From contig PMSI01000005.1 of assembly GCA_003168375.1 (NCBI GenBank), forward strand, positions 225,206 to 289,205: a stretch of DNA of 64,000 bases. The letters are read 5' to 3'. Under the pieces are notes generated by a model. That model was not told the origin of the DNA. It ran no database searches and worked only from the letters and a program-made list of their open reading frames with translations. This stretch comes from Vulcanimicrobiota bacterium. GTDB taxonomy: Bacteria > Vulcanimicrobiota > Vulcanimicrobiia > Vulcanimicrobiales > Vulcanimicrobiaceae. This document shows, in pieces, positions 13,008 through 20,118 of the stretch. Position 1 is the first letter of the stretch. Every line of letters starts with the position of its first letter. Both the position numbers and the translations under genes were made by a program.

Positions 13008-14246
13008 TCAGGCCGCATAGTGCTGTCTGCCCCGAGCGGTGCCCGGTGCTCTCATGGGCGGCGACTCCGCCCGCAGAAGGATGACCTGAGCCGCATTCAC
13101 GTCCGCGTCGGCCGCATGGCCGCAGCGAACACATGTAAAGCGCCGTCCCTCTCGACTTTCCTTGCAGACGCACCCACACGCGACGCACGTCTGCGAACTG
13201 TATCTGGCGTCGACCTCGATCACCGTGCGAGCAGCGTATTCTGCTTTCTCGCGGATCAAGCTCGCCAGCATCCCGAACCCGGCATCCAAGAGCGCCCGAT
13301 TCAAGCCTGCCTTGGCCCGCACCCCGACGCCAGGCACCTCCGGCGTCCCTTTGGCACTTCGCGTCATCGAACGCATCCGCAGCGACTCCAGCGCGATGCA
13401 ATCGAACCGCTGCACGACGCCACGGCTGACTTTGTGCAACCAGTCGCGGCGCGCGTTCGCTTCGCTTTCCTTCGCTCGAGCGAGCCGACGTACAGCGGCG
13501 ATGCGGGCCTGGTGCTTCGTGTTGAGCGGTCTGCCGATCGCGTCCTTCACGGTGACCGCGTCGAGGGCGCGCTGGTGTCGTTTGACCACCGCTTTGCGGC
13601 GGGAGCCGGGCCGCAAGTTCTCAATCATCGTGCCGTCGGAGAGCGCAGCGAGCACACGAATGCCGCGGTCGATGCCCACGCTGCACCCGGTCGCCGGCAG
13701 CGGCGATACCGTGCGGTGCGCCTCGAAGACCGCGTACCAGCGGCCGTTCTTGGTCACGAGGAAAGCACGACCGAACTCGGGCACGACCCGGCCCTTGCGC
13801 AGGCGCACCGCGCCGACACCGGGCACCCGCACCCGCCCTTGCACAATGTCGAACTTGAGCGCGCGGTCGCCGTGCGGAAACTCCAGCTGGTTCCAGCGGG
13901 CAATCGGCTTGAAGCGCGGATATCCCGGCGTTTCTCCGCGTTTCAGCCGCCGGAAAAAGGCCGCAAACGCGAGATCCAAACGGTGGAGGACCGCATCCTC
14001 GCAATCGCGATAGACGCCGGCGAAACGCGCCTCGACCTCTCGCAGTTCGGTGAGCTGAAGGTACTGTTCGCGGCTCGTCAGCGAGAGGCGGCGACTCGTC
14101 CAGGCGTCGCGACGCTGCTGAAGCAGCGCGTTGTACAGCTCGCGGGTGACGCGGAGCATCTTGACCAGGGCGCGTTCTTGCGCGCAGGTCGGATAAACTC
14201 GGACCTTGTGCAGCCACCGGAGCTGGCCATCGAAGCGCGATGCCAC
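13008..14246 (-). CDS. tnpB: TnpB (IS200/IS605-type OrfB), RNA-guided nuclease family
   Basis: 412 residues, intact. The RuvC-like residues are in place: D193 in VGIDRGI, E287 in CIALESL and D382 in ADADVNAAQ. The zinc ribbon has C354/C357 and C372/C375. An N-terminal helix-turn-helix-like region and the WLHKVRVYP start are typical. No tnpA Y1 transposase is adjacent, so this is an IS1341-like solo element that would need TnpA in trans. The region downstream of its 3' end (about 12880-13007) could encode the guide (omega) RNA, but I could not define its end. Confidence 0.93.
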   Translation of the reverse strand: MASRFDGQLRWLHKVRVYPTCAQERALVKMLRVTRELYNALLQQRRDAWTSRRLSLTSREQYLQLTELREVEARFAGVYRDCEDAVLHRLDLAFAAFFRRLKRGETPGYPRFKPIARWNQLEFPHGDRALKFDIVQGRVRVPGVGAVRLRKGRVVPEFGRAFLVTKNGRWYAVFEAHRTVSPLPATGCSVGIDRGIRVLAALSDGTMIENLRPGSRRKAVVKRHQRALDAVTVKDAIGRPLNTKHQARIAAVRRLARAKESEANARRDWLHKVSRGVVQRFDCIALESLRMRSMTRSAKGTPEVPGVGVRAKAGLNRALLDAGFGMLASLIREKAEYAARTVIEVDARYSSQTCVACGCVCKESREGRRFTCVRCGHAADADVNAAQVILLRAESPPMRAPGTARGRQHYAA

Positions 14247-14702: not shown

Positions 14703-14731
14703 TTGACTATTCCGGCATCGCATGCTAAAGT
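14703..14731 (+). promoter_or_regulatory. promoter of sulfonate uptake operon
   Basis: TTGACT (14703-14708), 17-bp spacer, TAAAGT (14726-14731). Predicted transcription start about 14738, roughly 25 nt before the leader-peptide ATG at 14764. Confidence 0.7.
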
Positions 14732-14763
14732 CGCGCTCAATCGTGTCGAACCAATACTGTCTC

Positions 14764-14817
14764 ATGGCGATGTGCATTTGCTGTCTCCCCTATCGGGATC
14801 GGCGAGCTTCGGCATGA
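14764..14817 (+). CDS. cysteine-rich leader peptide (attenuation)
   Basis: 17-residue peptide MAMCICCLPYRDRRASA. Three of four consecutive codons are cysteine (TGC-ATT-TGC-TGT, 14773-14784), which is extremely unlikely by chance. It lies between a strong promoter and a strong terminator in front of a sulfonate ABC importer. Its role would be to measure charged tRNA-Cys: ribosomes stall at the Cys codons when cysteine is scarce. No clear Shine-Dalgarno was seen. The peptide itself need not have a function. Confidence 0.8.
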   Translation: MAMCICCLPYRDRRASA

Positions 14818-14883
14818 GCTAGCGCTTCGGCGCACAGACATCGTGCAGAGCCCTCGCCGATCCGGCGGGGGCTCTTCGTTTTC
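14796..14883 (+). promoter_or_regulatory. ribosome-mediated transcription attenuator responding to cysteine
   Basis: Terminator: GAGCCCTCGCCG (14848-14859) pairs with CGGCGGGGGCTC (14863-14874), a 12-bp stem with a 3-nt loop, followed by TTCGTTTT. Antiterminator: GGATCGGCGAG (14796-14806), inside the leader ORF and 12 nt after the last Cys codon, is an exact complement of CTCGCCGATCC (14853-14863), which overlaps the terminator's 5' arm. The two folds are mutually exclusive. Stalling on the Cys codons would leave 14796-14806 free and allow readthrough; normal translation would cover it and allow termination. Confidence 0.85.
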
Positions 14884-14916
14884 ACCCGCTCTTCCTATCT
14901 CACCAGGAGGCGTTCC

Positions 14917-15906
14917 ATGGCATCACTCTCCCGCTCTGATTTCCTTACCGCCGCCGGCGCCGCCGCGGTCGCCGCGGCGCTGCCGCTCAGCGCGCGCGCC
15001 GCCGGCCTCGACAAACTCGGGCTCGACTACGCGTACTACAATCCGCCGAGCCTCGTGCTCAAGTCGAAGGGCTGGCTCGAAGAAGCGCTCTCGAAGCGCG
15101 GGACGTCGGTCGAGTGGGTGCTCTCGCTCGGCTCGAACAAGGCGAACCAGTACTTGCAGGCCGGCGCCGTGCAGTTCGGTTCGACCGCCGGGAGCGCGGC
15201 GCTGCTCGCGCGCGCCAACGGCTCGCCGATCAAGACGGTGTTCCTGTACTCGCGTCCGGAGTGGACCGCGCTGGTGGTCGGGAAAGACTCGCCGCTCAAG
15301 AGCGTCAAGGATCTGAAGGACAAGAAGGTCGCCGCGACGCGCGGCACCGATCCGTGGTTCTTCCTCTTGCGCTCGCTGCAAGCCAACGGACTGCAGCCCA
15401 CCGACGTGCAGCTCGTGGACCTGCAGCATCCCGACGGGCGCACCGCGCTCGAGCGCGGTCAGGTCGATGGGTGGGCCGGGCTCGATCCGCACATGGCGGC
15501 GACGCAGCTCGACGCCAGCTCGCGCCTGCTCTACCGCAACGTCGCCTTCAACACGTGGGGCGCGCTCAACGTGCGTGAAGACTTCCTCGCGCAGCATCCC
15601 GACATCGCCGCGATCGTGCTGCAGCAGTACGAACGCGCACGCAAGTACGCCGCGGCGCACGTCGACGAGACCGCCGCGCTGCTGTCGGATGCGTCGAAGG
15701 TAGAACGGCGCGTGGCGGACCTCCAACTGCGCGAACGCACGACGTATCCGGGCAACGGGACGCCGGGCAGCGACTATCACGACGCGATCGCCGGGGTCGT
15801 CCCGCTGATCCGCTCCGACAAGCTCGCGAAGCCCGACGCCGACCTCGACGGCGCGGTCGCCTCGCTGATCGACACGCGCCCCGCTACGACGGCGCTGCGT
15901 GGCTAG
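14917..15906 (+). CDS. ssuA: aliphatic sulfonate-type ABC transporter, substrate-binding protein
   Basis: 329 residues with a hydrophobic export signal (residues about 8-29, cleavage after ...SARA). The mature part is a type II periplasmic binding protein of the SsuA/TauA/NMT1 group: LGLDYAYYNPPSLVLKSKGWLEE, the central VKDLKDKKVAATRGTDPWFFL, and DGWAGLDPHMAATQLD. It is expected to capture sulfonates or similar organosulfur compounds in the periplasm. An AGGAGG site precedes the ATG. It lies just behind the cysteine attenuator, which supports a sulfur-scavenging role. The exact substrate is unproven. Confidence 0.87.
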   Translation: MASLSRSDFLTAAGAAAVAAALPLSARAAGLDKLGLDYAYYNPPSLVLKSKGWLEEALSKRGTSVEWVLSLGSNKANQYLQAGAVQFGSTAGSAALLARANGSPIKTVFLYSRPEWTALVVGKDSPLKSVKDLKDKKVAATRGTDPWFFLLRSLQANGLQPTDVQLVDLQHPDGRTALERGQVDGWAGLDPHMAATQLDASSRLLYRNVAFNTWGALNVREDFLAQHPDIAAIVLQQYERARKYAAAHVDETAALLSDASKVERRVADLQLRERTTYPGNGTPGSDYHDAIAGVVPLIRSDKLAKPDADLDGAVASLIDTRPATTALRG

Positions 15907-16642
15907 GTTCATCGTCCCGCTCGCGCTGCTCGCCGGATGGTGGGCGGCGAGCGCGAGCGGGTTCATCAAGTCGTACCAGCTCGCCTCGCCGCGCGACGTC
16001 GTGCGCGAGCTGCTCGACCTCGCGCAGAGCGGGCTGTTGTGGCGCGATCTCGGCGCGAGCGTCGAGCGCGTCGCGCTCGGCTTTGCGATCGCGCTGCTCT
16101 GCGCGCTGGTGCTGGGCTCGCTGGTCGGCGGCTCGCGGTTCGCCGAGCGCGCGCTCGACCCGACGCTGCAAGGGATTCGCGCGGTCCCCTCGCTCGCATG
16201 GGTGCCGCTGATCCTGCTCTGGCTCGGGATCGGCGAGACGGCGAAGATCACGCTGGTCGCGATCGGCGCGTTCTTCCCGATCTACGTCGCGCTGGTGAGC
16301 GGTATTCGCGGCGTCGACCGCAAGCTGGTCGAGGTCGGTACGATCTTCGGCCTCTCGCGCTTCGCGCTGATCGCGCGCGTGCTCGTCCCGGCGACGCTGC
16401 CGCAACTACTGGTGGGCGCACGCATCGGCCTCACCCAGGCGTGGCTGTTCCTGGTCGCGGCCGAACTGCTGGCGGCGACCAACGGGCTCGGCTTCCTGCT
16501 CACCGACGGTCAGCAGACCTCGCGCACCGACGAGATCCTGGTCGCGATCCTGCTCTTCGCGGCGTGCGGCAAGCTCTCGGAGAGCGCGATGCGCCTGCTC
16601 GAGAAACGACTGGTCGGCTGGACCGACACGGTGCCCGCATGA
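15899..16642 (+). CDS. ssuC: sulfonate-type ABC transporter permease
   Basis: 247-residue inner-membrane protein with about six transmembrane helices and the BPD_transp_1 coupling segment EVGTIFGLSRFALIARVLVPATLPQLLVGARIGLTQAW. It starts with GTG inside the ssuA end (8-nt overlap) and overlaps ssuB by 4 nt, so the three are a tightly coupled importer operon. No monooxygenase gene (ssuD/tauD) follows, so desulfonation enzymes must be encoded elsewhere. Confidence 0.88.
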   Translation: MARFIVPLALLAGWWAASASGFIKSYQLASPRDVVRELLDLAQSGLLWRDLGASVERVALGFAIALLCALVLGSLVGGSRFAERALDPTLQGIRAVPSLAWVPLILLWLGIGETAKITLVAIGAFFPIYVALVSGIRGVDRKLVEVGTIFGLSRFALIARVLVPATLPQLLVGARIGLTQAWLFLVAAELLAATNGLGFLLTDGQQTSRTDEILVAILLFAACGKLSESAMRLLEKRLVGWTDTVPA

Positions 16643-17361
16643 GCGCAGCCCGCATCCGCGGCCTGCGCAAGGCGTACGGCGCGCACCTCGTCTTCGACGG
16701 GCTCGATCTCGACCTCGCGCGCGGCGAGCGCGTCGCGATCCTCGGCGCGAGCGGCTGCGGCAAGTCGACGCTGCTGCGCTGCATCGCGGGGCTGGAGCGC
16801 GCCGACGCCGGCACGATCGCGACGAGCGGCGAGATCGGCGTCGTGTTCCAGGAGCCGCGGCTGTTTCCGTGGCTCGACGTCGAGCGCAACGTCGCGTTCC
16901 CGGCCCGCAGCGACGCCGAACGCGCCCGCGTCGCCAACGTGCTCGCGCTGGTCGGGCTCGCGCATGCCGCGAAGCGGATTCCGAAGGAGCTCTCCGGCGG
17001 GATGGCCCAGCGCGCCGCGCTGGCGCGCGCGCTCGTCCGCGATCCCGCGCTGCTGCTGCTCGACGAGCCGTTCGCAGCGCTCGACGCGCTGCGCCGGATA
17101 GAACTGCGCGCGGCGGTCCGCGAGATCTTGGAGTTCACGCGCGCGTCGGCGATCCTAGTGACGCACGACGTCGACGACGCGCTGGCGCTCGCGGACCGCG
17201 TCGTCGTGCTGGCGGGCACGCCGGCGGAGATTGCGTTTACCGCTCAGGTCGGCGAGACGGCGACACGCGGCGCGATTCTCGACGCGCTAGGCGTTGTCGA
17301 GGTCAGATCGCGATCGGTGCCAGCTCGATCCGGCCGGCACGGTGCGAGCTACACGTCTTGA
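16639..17361 (+). CDS. ssuB: sulfonate-type ABC transporter ATPase
   Basis: 240 residues. Walker A GASGCGKST, Q-loop VVFQEPRLFPWLDVERNV, signature LSGGMAQRAALARAL, Walker B LLLLDEPFAALD and H-loop THD are all present. The PRLFPW segment is typical of the nitrate/sulfonate/taurine (SsuB/TauB) ATPase subfamily. The last 20 or so residues (RSRSVPARSGRHGASYTS) look unlike family ends and overlap an opposite-strand small ORF, so the natural stop may have been lost recently. Confidence 0.88.
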   Translation: MSAARIRGLRKAYGAHLVFDGLDLDLARGERVAILGASGCGKSTLLRCIAGLERADAGTIATSGEIGVVFQEPRLFPWLDVERNVAFPARSDAERARVANVLALVGLAHAAKRIPKELSGGMAQRAALARALVRDPALLLLDEPFAALDALRRIELRAAVREILEFTRASAILVTHDVDDALALADRVVVLAGTPAEIAFTAQVGETATRGAILDALGVVEVRSRSVPARSGRHGASYTS

Positions 17362-18813: not shown

Positions 18814-20118
18814 ATGGACGAGCGGACTTTTGGATTTCGTACGCGGGCGCTGCATGCGGGGACGCCGCCCGACGGGGAGACGGGGGCGCGTGCGCTGCCG
18901 CTGCATCTGTCGACGAGCTTCGTGTTCGACTCGACCGAGCATGCGGCCGAGCTGTTCGCGCTGCGCACGTACGGCAACATCTACACGCGGATCGGGAACC
19001 CGACGGTCGCGGCGTTCGAGGAGAAGCTCGCGAGCCTCGAAGGCGGGCTCGGTGCGGTCGCGACCGCCAGCGGGCTCTCGGCGCAGCTCATCGCGATCCT
19101 GAGCCTCGCGCAGAACGGCGATCATCTGGTCGCGTCGGCGAACCTGTACGGCGGCACGATCACGCAGTTCGGCGTGACGCTGCGGCGGATGGGGATCGAG
19201 ACGACGTTCGTCCCCGGCAGCGATCTCGACGCCGTGCGCGGCGCGCTGCGCGACAACACCAAGGCGGTGTTCACGGAGACGATCGGCAATCCGAAAGGAA
19301 ACGTCGCCGACCTCGCCGCGCTTGCCGAGATCGCGCATGGCGCGGGTGTTCCACTGATCGTCGACAACACGTTCGCGACGCCGTACTTGTGCCGGCCGAT
19401 CGAGCACGGCGCGGACATCATCACCCACTCCGCGACGAAGTTCATCGGCGGGCACGGCACCGTGCTCGGCGGCGCGATCGTCGAGTCCGGCACGTTTCCG
19501 TGGGCGGCCGGAAAGCATCCGCTGCTCGCGACGCCGAGCCCGGGTTACCACGGGCTGAACTTCGCGGAGACGTTCGGCGAGTACGCGTTCGTCCAGCGCG
19601 CACGCGTCGAGGTGCTGCGGGATGTCGGCGCGTCGATCTCGCCGATGAACGCCTGGCTGCTGGTGCAGGGGCTCGAGACGCTCGGCCTGCGGATGCCGCA
19701 GCACGTCGCCAACGCGCACGCGGTCGCAACGTTCCTGCGCGGACGTGAGGAAGTCGCCTGGGTCTCCTACGCCGACCTGCCCGACAGCCCCGATCGGGCG
19801 CTCGCAGCACGCTACCTCCCGCTCGGATCCGGCGCGGTGTTCGCGTTCGGCTTGCACGGCGGACGCGATGCGGGCCGCGCCTTCATCGAATCGCTCGAAC
19901 TCTGGAGCCATCTCGCCAACGTCGGCGACGCGAAGAGCCTGGTGATCCATCCCGCCTCGACGACCCACCAGCAACTCTCCGACGACGAACTGCTGGCGGC
20001 CGGCGTCGGCCCGGAGATGGTGCGCCTGTCGGTCGGGCTGGAAGACGTCGAGGATCTGATCTGGGATCTCGAACGCGGGCTCGCCGCCGCGAAGCGCTCT
20101 GCTGAAGTGCGCGCGTGA
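18814..20118 (+). CDS. metY: O-acetylhomoserine sulfhydrylase (MetY-type)
   Basis: 434-residue PLP enzyme of the Cys/Met metabolism family, which makes homocysteine from O-acetylhomoserine and sulfide. Its length and the sequence FGFRTRALHAGTPPD, TYGNIYTRIGNPT, DNTFATPYLCRP and SATKFIGGHG (PLP lysine K209) fit the MetY branch rather than MetB/MetC (about 380-400 residues). It stands alone with a CoA-binding gene overlapping its stop by 4 nt. It probably consumes sulfide derived from scavenged sulfur compounds. Confidence 0.92.
   Translation: MDERTFGFRTRALHAGTPPDGETGARALPLHLSTSFVFDSTEHAAELFALRTYGNIYTRIGNPTVAAFEEKLASLEGGLGAVATASGLSAQLIAILSLAQNGDHLVASANLYGGTITQFGVTLRRMGIETTFVPGSDLDAVRGALRDNTKAVFTETIGNPKGNVADLAALAEIAHGAGVPLIVDNTFATPYLCRPIEHGADIITHSATKFIGGHGTVLGGAIVESGTFPWAAGKHPLLATPSPGYHGLNFAETFGEYAFVQRARVEVLRDVGASISPMNAWLLVQGLETLGLRMPQHVANAHAVATFLRGREEVAWVSYADLPDSPDRALAARYLPLGSGAVFAFGLHGGRDAGRAFIESLELWSHLANVGDAKSLVIHPASTTHQQLSDDELLAAGVGPEMVRLSVGLEDVEDLIWDLERGLAAAKRSAEVRA

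Follow-up and report, generated by a model that had tools for sequence, protein, structure and literature searches.

A predicted cysteine-responsive transcription attenuator upstream of an SsuABC-like importer in Vulcanimicrobiota, and sibling leaders with other codon runs across the phylum

The window analyzed here is a 64,000-nucleotide stretch of one genome (G000, 97% complete) from a phylum that appears in public records as Candidatus Eremiobacterota or WPS-2 and is now named Vulcanimicrobiota. It carries an ssuABC-like operon which, like its leader, lies on the forward strand. The first gene (14917-15906), preceded by a Shine-Dalgarno sequence, AGGAGG (14905-14910), codes for a substrate-binding protein of the SsuA family (TIGR01728, scoring 218.5 bits where the cut-off is 163.5); it is followed by genes for a permease whose best match is SsuC, although below the equivalog cut-off (15899-16642), and an importer ATPase identified by profile match as SsuB-like, of uncertain subfamily (16639-17361). 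The translated proteins are Cys-poor, with 2 of 247 residues in the permease and 2 of 234 in the ATPase; the SsuA protein has no Cys at all in its 329 residues. A second O-acetylhomoserine sulfhydrylase gene lies 3′ of the importer (18814-20118, forward strand), and the reverse strand encodes an RNA-guided nuclease of the TnpB family (IS200/IS605) at 13008-14246, about 450 bases 5′ of the promoter described below.

The preliminary description of this locus named a sulfonate importer of the SsuA/SsuB/SsuC type. The SsuABC-like homology stands, with TIGR01728 above its cut-off, but the sulfonate label reflects family similarity only. Desulfonation yields sulfite, which must then be reduced. No SsuD above cut-off, and no CysI, CysH, or NIR_SIR domain, was detected in G000, whereas the NIR_SIR profile has matches in 11 of 14 control genomes; because these proteins are not recognizable, sulfonate is not established as the substrate. 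One TauD-family protein is encoded elsewhere in the genome. CysI and CysH were likewise not detected in G001, G004, G008, and G009, but CysI, CysH, and the importer are all present in the congeners G006, G007, G010, and G005, and sulfonate use is therefore possible in those four. For G000, either there is an unrecognized reductase, or the gene falls in the missing few percent of the genome, or another sulfur compound is imported.

A promoter precedes the importer exactly where it had been placed, with a −35 hexamer (TTGACT, 14703-14708) and a −10 hexamer (TAAAGT, 14726-14731, with TG directly 5′) separated by 17 nt; TTGAC is kept in most orthologs, and a −10-like hexamer is found at the matching site. 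Downstream is a 24-codon ORF that runs from GTG to TGA (14743-14817) and translates as VSNQYCLMAMCICCLPYRDRRASA (initial GTG read as M). Four of the 24 codons specify Cys (TGT 14758, TGC 14773, TGC 14779, and TGT 14782, spanning 14758-14784), and the Cys-Ile-Cys-Cys codons at 14773-14784 fall among these putative regulatory codons. This ORF had been described as having 17 residues; its frame and codons are as claimed, but its start and length are not, the 17-codon frame (ATG 14764 to TGA 14815-14817) being the 3′ part of the longer one. We rejected ATG 14764 as the start, as no Shine-Dalgarno sequence precedes this internal in-frame codon, and the orthologs put ATG at the GTG position, some having no internal ATG. 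From ortholog comparison, the predicted ORF is the one that begins at GTG 14743, with ATG or GTG at the matching site in all 15 orthologous leaders. GTG 14743 is 11 nt past the −10 box and has no Shine-Dalgarno sequence; in the 15 ssuA leaders the corresponding distance, estimated by eye, is about 7-12 nt, and most of the 52 sibling leaders measured (see below) have 7-11 nt. Because the start codon is too near the promoter to fit a ribosome-binding site, initiation is probably leaderless, and the promoter-to-start distance predicts an mRNA that is probably leaderless or nearly so.

The ORF overlaps a set of alternative RNA helices. Strand 1 (14778-14789) overlaps the last two Cys codons and pairs with strand 2 in a protector hairpin present in the minimum free energy fold. 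Strand 2 (GGATCGGCGAG, 14796-14806) lies within the leader ORF and forms the 5′ strand of a putative antiterminator, whose 3′ strand, strand 3 (CTCGCCGATCC, 14853-14863), is its exact complement (11 of 11 pairs). Strand 3 spans the inner 5′ arm of a predicted intrinsic terminator, its 3-nt loop (14860-14862), and the first base of its 3′ arm, so the antiterminator and terminator are mutually exclusive; both the exact complementarity and the exclusivity had been noted in the preliminary description. The 12-bp terminator it reported is also present, a computed hairpin at 14848-14874 that includes one G-U pair (−24.2 kcal/mol), and the T-tract is there too (TTCGTTTT, 14875-14882), although interrupted, as seen in the sequence TTCGTTTTC directly 3′ of the hairpin.

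The leader as a whole is unusually stable (fold z-score −3.5; 0 of 200 shuffles equally stable). In a three-state test, each leader was folded at equilibrium with the ribosome-covered bases blocked. For the window leader, the terminator has a probability of 0.91 and the protector 0.89 with no ribosome; when the final Cys codon occupies the A site, the antiterminator reaches 0.95, and with the ribosome at the stop codon, the terminator is again at 0.91. The same shifts are predicted in most orthologs, although several leaders (e.g., L004, L007, L008, and L016) mostly retain the terminator in the stalled states, which counts against the model. Nascent-RNA kinetics would favor the antiterminator beyond what equilibrium folds convey, because strand 4 is synthesized last.

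We compared 17 close SsuA orthologs in the phylum, including that of the window, with 60-93% protein identity. The upstream design is kept in 15; the other two (L010 and L014) have no Cys ORF and count against it. The 15 leaders have ORFs of 19-27 codons with two to five Cys codons each, strand 2 begins 8-15 nt past the final Cys codon in every one, and all have a GC-rich 8-13 bp hairpin, equivalent to the window terminator, followed by T-rich sequence. At least four in-frame Cys codons arise by base shuffling of the window sequence alone with ∼1% chance, so the ORF by itself is weak evidence; chance is ruled out because the Cys ORF is kept in 15 of 17 orthologs. A TTCCCATCnCA stretch lies directly 5′ of the ssuA Shine-Dalgarno sequence in the window (14880-14916) and in orthologs, even in L014. 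As a wider sulfur-regulon motif, TTCCCATCnCA-nn-GGAG was not supported, the exact pattern occurring once each in 3 of 13 genomes and always just before ssuA.

Covariation supports the antiterminator. In a hand-set register, strands 2 and 3 pair at 11 of 11 positions in the window leader and at 7-12 in most others; L011, with only 4 of 11 pairs in the aligned register, counts against conservation. In a MAFFT alignment of the leaders (A3), 83.8% of antiterminator cells are paired, and four pairs (eight cells) have both sides changed, whereas sliding the partner by one to three columns leaves 25-53% paired and at most one pair changed on both sides. None of 500 shuffles matched the pairing, and four of 500 matched the covariation score. 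The alignment misaligns L016 and L017, which pair in another register (12 of 13 and 11 of 13 pairs, respectively, when paired by hand). At strand-2 positions 3-4, A-U/G-C and U-A/C-G changes are compensated in the terminator loop, and they point to the antiterminator because the terminator imposes no pairing there; pair 9 is mismatched in most orthologs, which counts against it. The cross-genome comparison suggested as a check on the preliminary description therefore found both Cys codons kept in 15 of 17 and compensatory changes in the antiterminator.

A covariance model built from the 15 leaders (R1) was run on 149 genomes of the phylum; the RNAalifold structure within it is a search aid only and does not depict the mechanism. 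The inspected matches include Cys leaders together with leaders bearing other codon runs, all laid out alike: the start codon adjoins the promoter, and the short ORF ends in a stop codon ahead of a terminator whose core is similar. Leaders with LVLVVVVLI and LVLVLSVIL precede the genes for acetolactate synthase (ilvB) and ketol-acid reductoisomerase (ilvC), respectively; AYYYY precedes a prephenate dehydratase/DAHP synthase fusion (pheA-aroF), and YFYRWYP precedes EPSP synthase (aroA). Homoserine dehydrogenase (hom) has TTTITTTTT, cystathionine gamma-synthase (metB) has MMRMMR, O-acetylhomoserine sulfhydrylase (metY) has CMAIMAMC, and sulfite reductase CysI and PAPS reductase CysH have leaders with CCC runs. 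Leu, Ile, and Val make up 42-43% of the ilvB and ilvC leaders, Tyr, Phe, and Trp 25-26% of those of pheA-aroF and aroA, and Thr 35% of the hom leaders; the metY leaders are 13% Cys and 16% Met, and the cysI and cysH leaders 11-26% Cys. Among the 68 leaders whose gene was assigned, the cognate-residue score reaches 17.9, compared with 8.2 ± 0.8 when permuted (0 of 20,000 permutations), and for 42 de-duplicated leaders it is 10.2 against 4.7 ± 0.6 (0 of 20,000), where the cognate residue sets were picked after leaders and genes had been seen and follow textbook pathway logic. The Cys bias of R1 cannot produce this match, because the bias is equal for all genes. The codon-gene match among sibling leaders is the strongest support for the predicted attenuation, and it is independent. 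G000 itself has several members: Cys before ssuABC, Cys/Met before metY (C7:410908-411041), Thr/Ile before hom (C7:407263-407387), and Leu/Val/Ile before ilvC (C4:1649299-1649440). The single-contig genome G006 has such leaders ahead of ssuA, cysI, metY, hom, and aroA. R1 finds no attenuator before the sulfhydrylase gene at 18814-20118, unlike the metY copy on C7.

Putative attenuators of a similar leaderless type are found at Eremiobacterota loci L126-L164 and L172-L211, with codon runs that fit their genes, and include a second hom type with Cys/Met codons. A peroxiredoxin gene, unexpected in a cysteine regulon, follows a Cys-run attenuator (MCCCLC, ICCCC) at two loci (L151:1199-1843 and L157:1341-2009). 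Tyr-run leaders (AYYYY) at L139, L172, L184, and L197 precede a gene whose conserved product carries EFERAVAxxIDRHPIV and, at L139, has no Pfam or NCBIfam match; control by aromatic amino acids hints at its role. Met/Cys leaders (AMIMAMC, ACCEKMACC) at L192 and L202 precede genes with no assigned identity. Finally, in Chloroflexota/Thermomicrobia, short Cys ORFs (e.g., CACVCL, RACACL, RICEC) lie 5′ of SsuA relatives at eight loci (L042-L044, L047, L049, L051, L053, and L054) with no evident intrinsic terminator; these may be translational attenuators.

We propose that ribosome-mediated transcription attenuation of the trp/his type, responsive to cysteine, governs the ssuABC-like operon, and we assign this reading a probability of about 90%. 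Read from the sequence parts, their conservation, the covariation, and the codon-gene match, the sequence of events would be as follows. Transcription would start no more than a few bases from GTG 14743. With no Shine-Dalgarno sequence to guide it, a ribosome would load at the 5′ end of the RNA and translate the ORF. When Cys-tRNA is scarce, the ribosome would stall on the Cys codons at 14773-14784, breaking the strand 1-strand 2 protector and freeing strand 2 to pair with strand 3; the terminator would not form, and the importer would be transcribed. When cysteine is plentiful, the ribosome would reach the stop codon at 14815 and mask strand 2, such that the terminator at 14848-14874 forms, and with no ribosome the protector would hold strand 2, giving termination by default. 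The preliminary description had seen the architecture of ribosome-mediated attenuation with Cys codons here, and the spacing of those codons, the covarying antiterminator, the three-state folding, and the matching codon runs of the siblings all argue for it.

A mycobacterial style of regulation, in which Cys-dependent ribosome movement alters access to the Shine-Dalgarno sequence and the hairpin plays no terminating role, has precedent, as leaderless Cys-rich short ORFs of M. smegmatis are reported to act on downstream translation (Canestrari 2020, as cited in PMC9031893 and PMC13236596), and no terminator is evident at the Cys ORFs of the Chloroflexota SsuA relatives. We consider such translational attenuation or coupling unlikely at the window locus, however, given that all 15 Eremiobacterota leaders have the GC-rich hairpin and T-rich sequence, and that the partner of strand 2 is the terminator arm and not the Shine-Dalgarno sequence at 14905-14910.

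The conserved, structured leader ahead of a sulfur gene might also be expected of a riboswitch binding SAM, cysteine, or another sulfur metabolite, the ORF being there by chance. Yet no Rfam family matched the leader at either the gathering or a relaxed threshold, which argues against a known RNA family or riboswitch, and conservation falls on the Cys codons, the in-frame start located at the promoter, and alternative helices of a simple kind. In the siblings, moreover, the terminator core stays and the codons change with the pathway, for which a ligand pocket would not account, and we regard a riboswitch as very improbable. Equally hard to credit is an unregulated, constitutive terminator beside a fortuitously Cys-rich ORF: terminator-like hairpins do arise by chance in the region, and the Cys count of a single sequence is of limited weight, but the Cys codons, their spacing, and the antiterminator covariation are kept in 15 orthologs, and the siblings match codons to genes.

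Beyond the single locus, we think it reasonably likely that leaderless ribosome-mediated attenuation is a main means of controlling amino-acid and sulfur metabolism phylum-wide, with one RNA design in which a similar antiterminator/terminator core is kept and codon runs are swapped before ssuABC, cysI, cysH, metY, metB, hom, ilvB, ilvC, leuA-like genes, pheA-aroF, and aroA. If so, initiation at the RNA 5′ end would allow immediate ribosome loading. Ribosome-mediated transcription attenuation is a mechanism known in kind, and each pair of these features is known already; what appears new is their combination, along with the gene and the phylum. The preliminary description had put it similarly, and the Cys-tuned leaders predicted or reported earlier do come from other phyla (Actinobacteria, PMC1262725; mycobacteria, PMC9031893; Rhodobacterales, PMC8632094), while we found no report in the open-access literature of attenuation in this phylum or at this importer. 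The leader is a candidate cysteine sensor at a sulfur importer, in a phylum of which very few members have been cultured. Its siblings provide an independent check on how attenuation matches codons to genes, in a lineage for which we found no such report. Leader codon content could also aid the assignment of importer roles, in that Cys codons place the transporter in sulfur supply, whatever its substrate.

The trp, his, leu, and thr operons of Escherichia coli are the classical ribosome-mediated transcription attenuators. The window leader resembles them in having a leader ORF with regulatory codons, mutually exclusive protector, antiterminator, and terminator helices, and a terminator before the first gene, and the G000 hom (Thr/Ile) and ilvC (Leu/Val/Ile) leaders parallel E. 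coli thrL and the ilv leaders. It differs in that its start codon is at or near the predicted RNA 5′ end with no Shine-Dalgarno sequence, the codons are for Cys, the first gene belongs to an importer rather than a biosynthetic pathway, and the phylum is another. In Actinobacteria, short ORFs with Cys-codon runs precede cys and cbs operons but, unlike for the window leader, a conserved terminator hairpin was not found (Seliverstov 2005, PMC1262725). The uORFC-8-2 motif before cysS in Rhodobacterales has tandem Cys codons and an intrinsic terminator, with attenuation predicted; Cys codons and terminator are common to both leaders, but the gene, phylum, and RNA differ, and the passage on the motif does not describe initiation at the 5′ end of the RNA (PMC8632094). 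For Firmicutes, an attenuator ahead of a sulfonate ABC transporter has been listed with no signal stated (PMC2965389). Mycobacterial leaderless polycysteine sORFs, for which Cys-dependent translational attenuation upstream of sulfur genes has been shown (Canestrari et al. 2020, Mol Microbiol, as cited in PMC9031893 and PMC13236596), are likewise short Cys ORFs before sulfur genes, leaderless as predicted here; they are reported to act on downstream translation, whereas the window leader has a putative intrinsic terminator and a covarying antiterminator. Leaderless leader peptides are known from Streptomyces lividans (LeuL2, TrpL1, and IlvL), with a hairpin and U-run and a terminator reported for several (PMC8079986), and from Sinorhizobium meliloti trpL, whose transcript begins at the ATG (PMC7298713). 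They share with the window leader a leaderless ORF (predicted here), amino-acid-specific codons, and a hairpin with a U-run, and none of the examples described in these two sources is specific for Cys or precedes a sulfur importer; unlike that set, the Eremiobacterota leaders are alike enough for one model to find several pathways.
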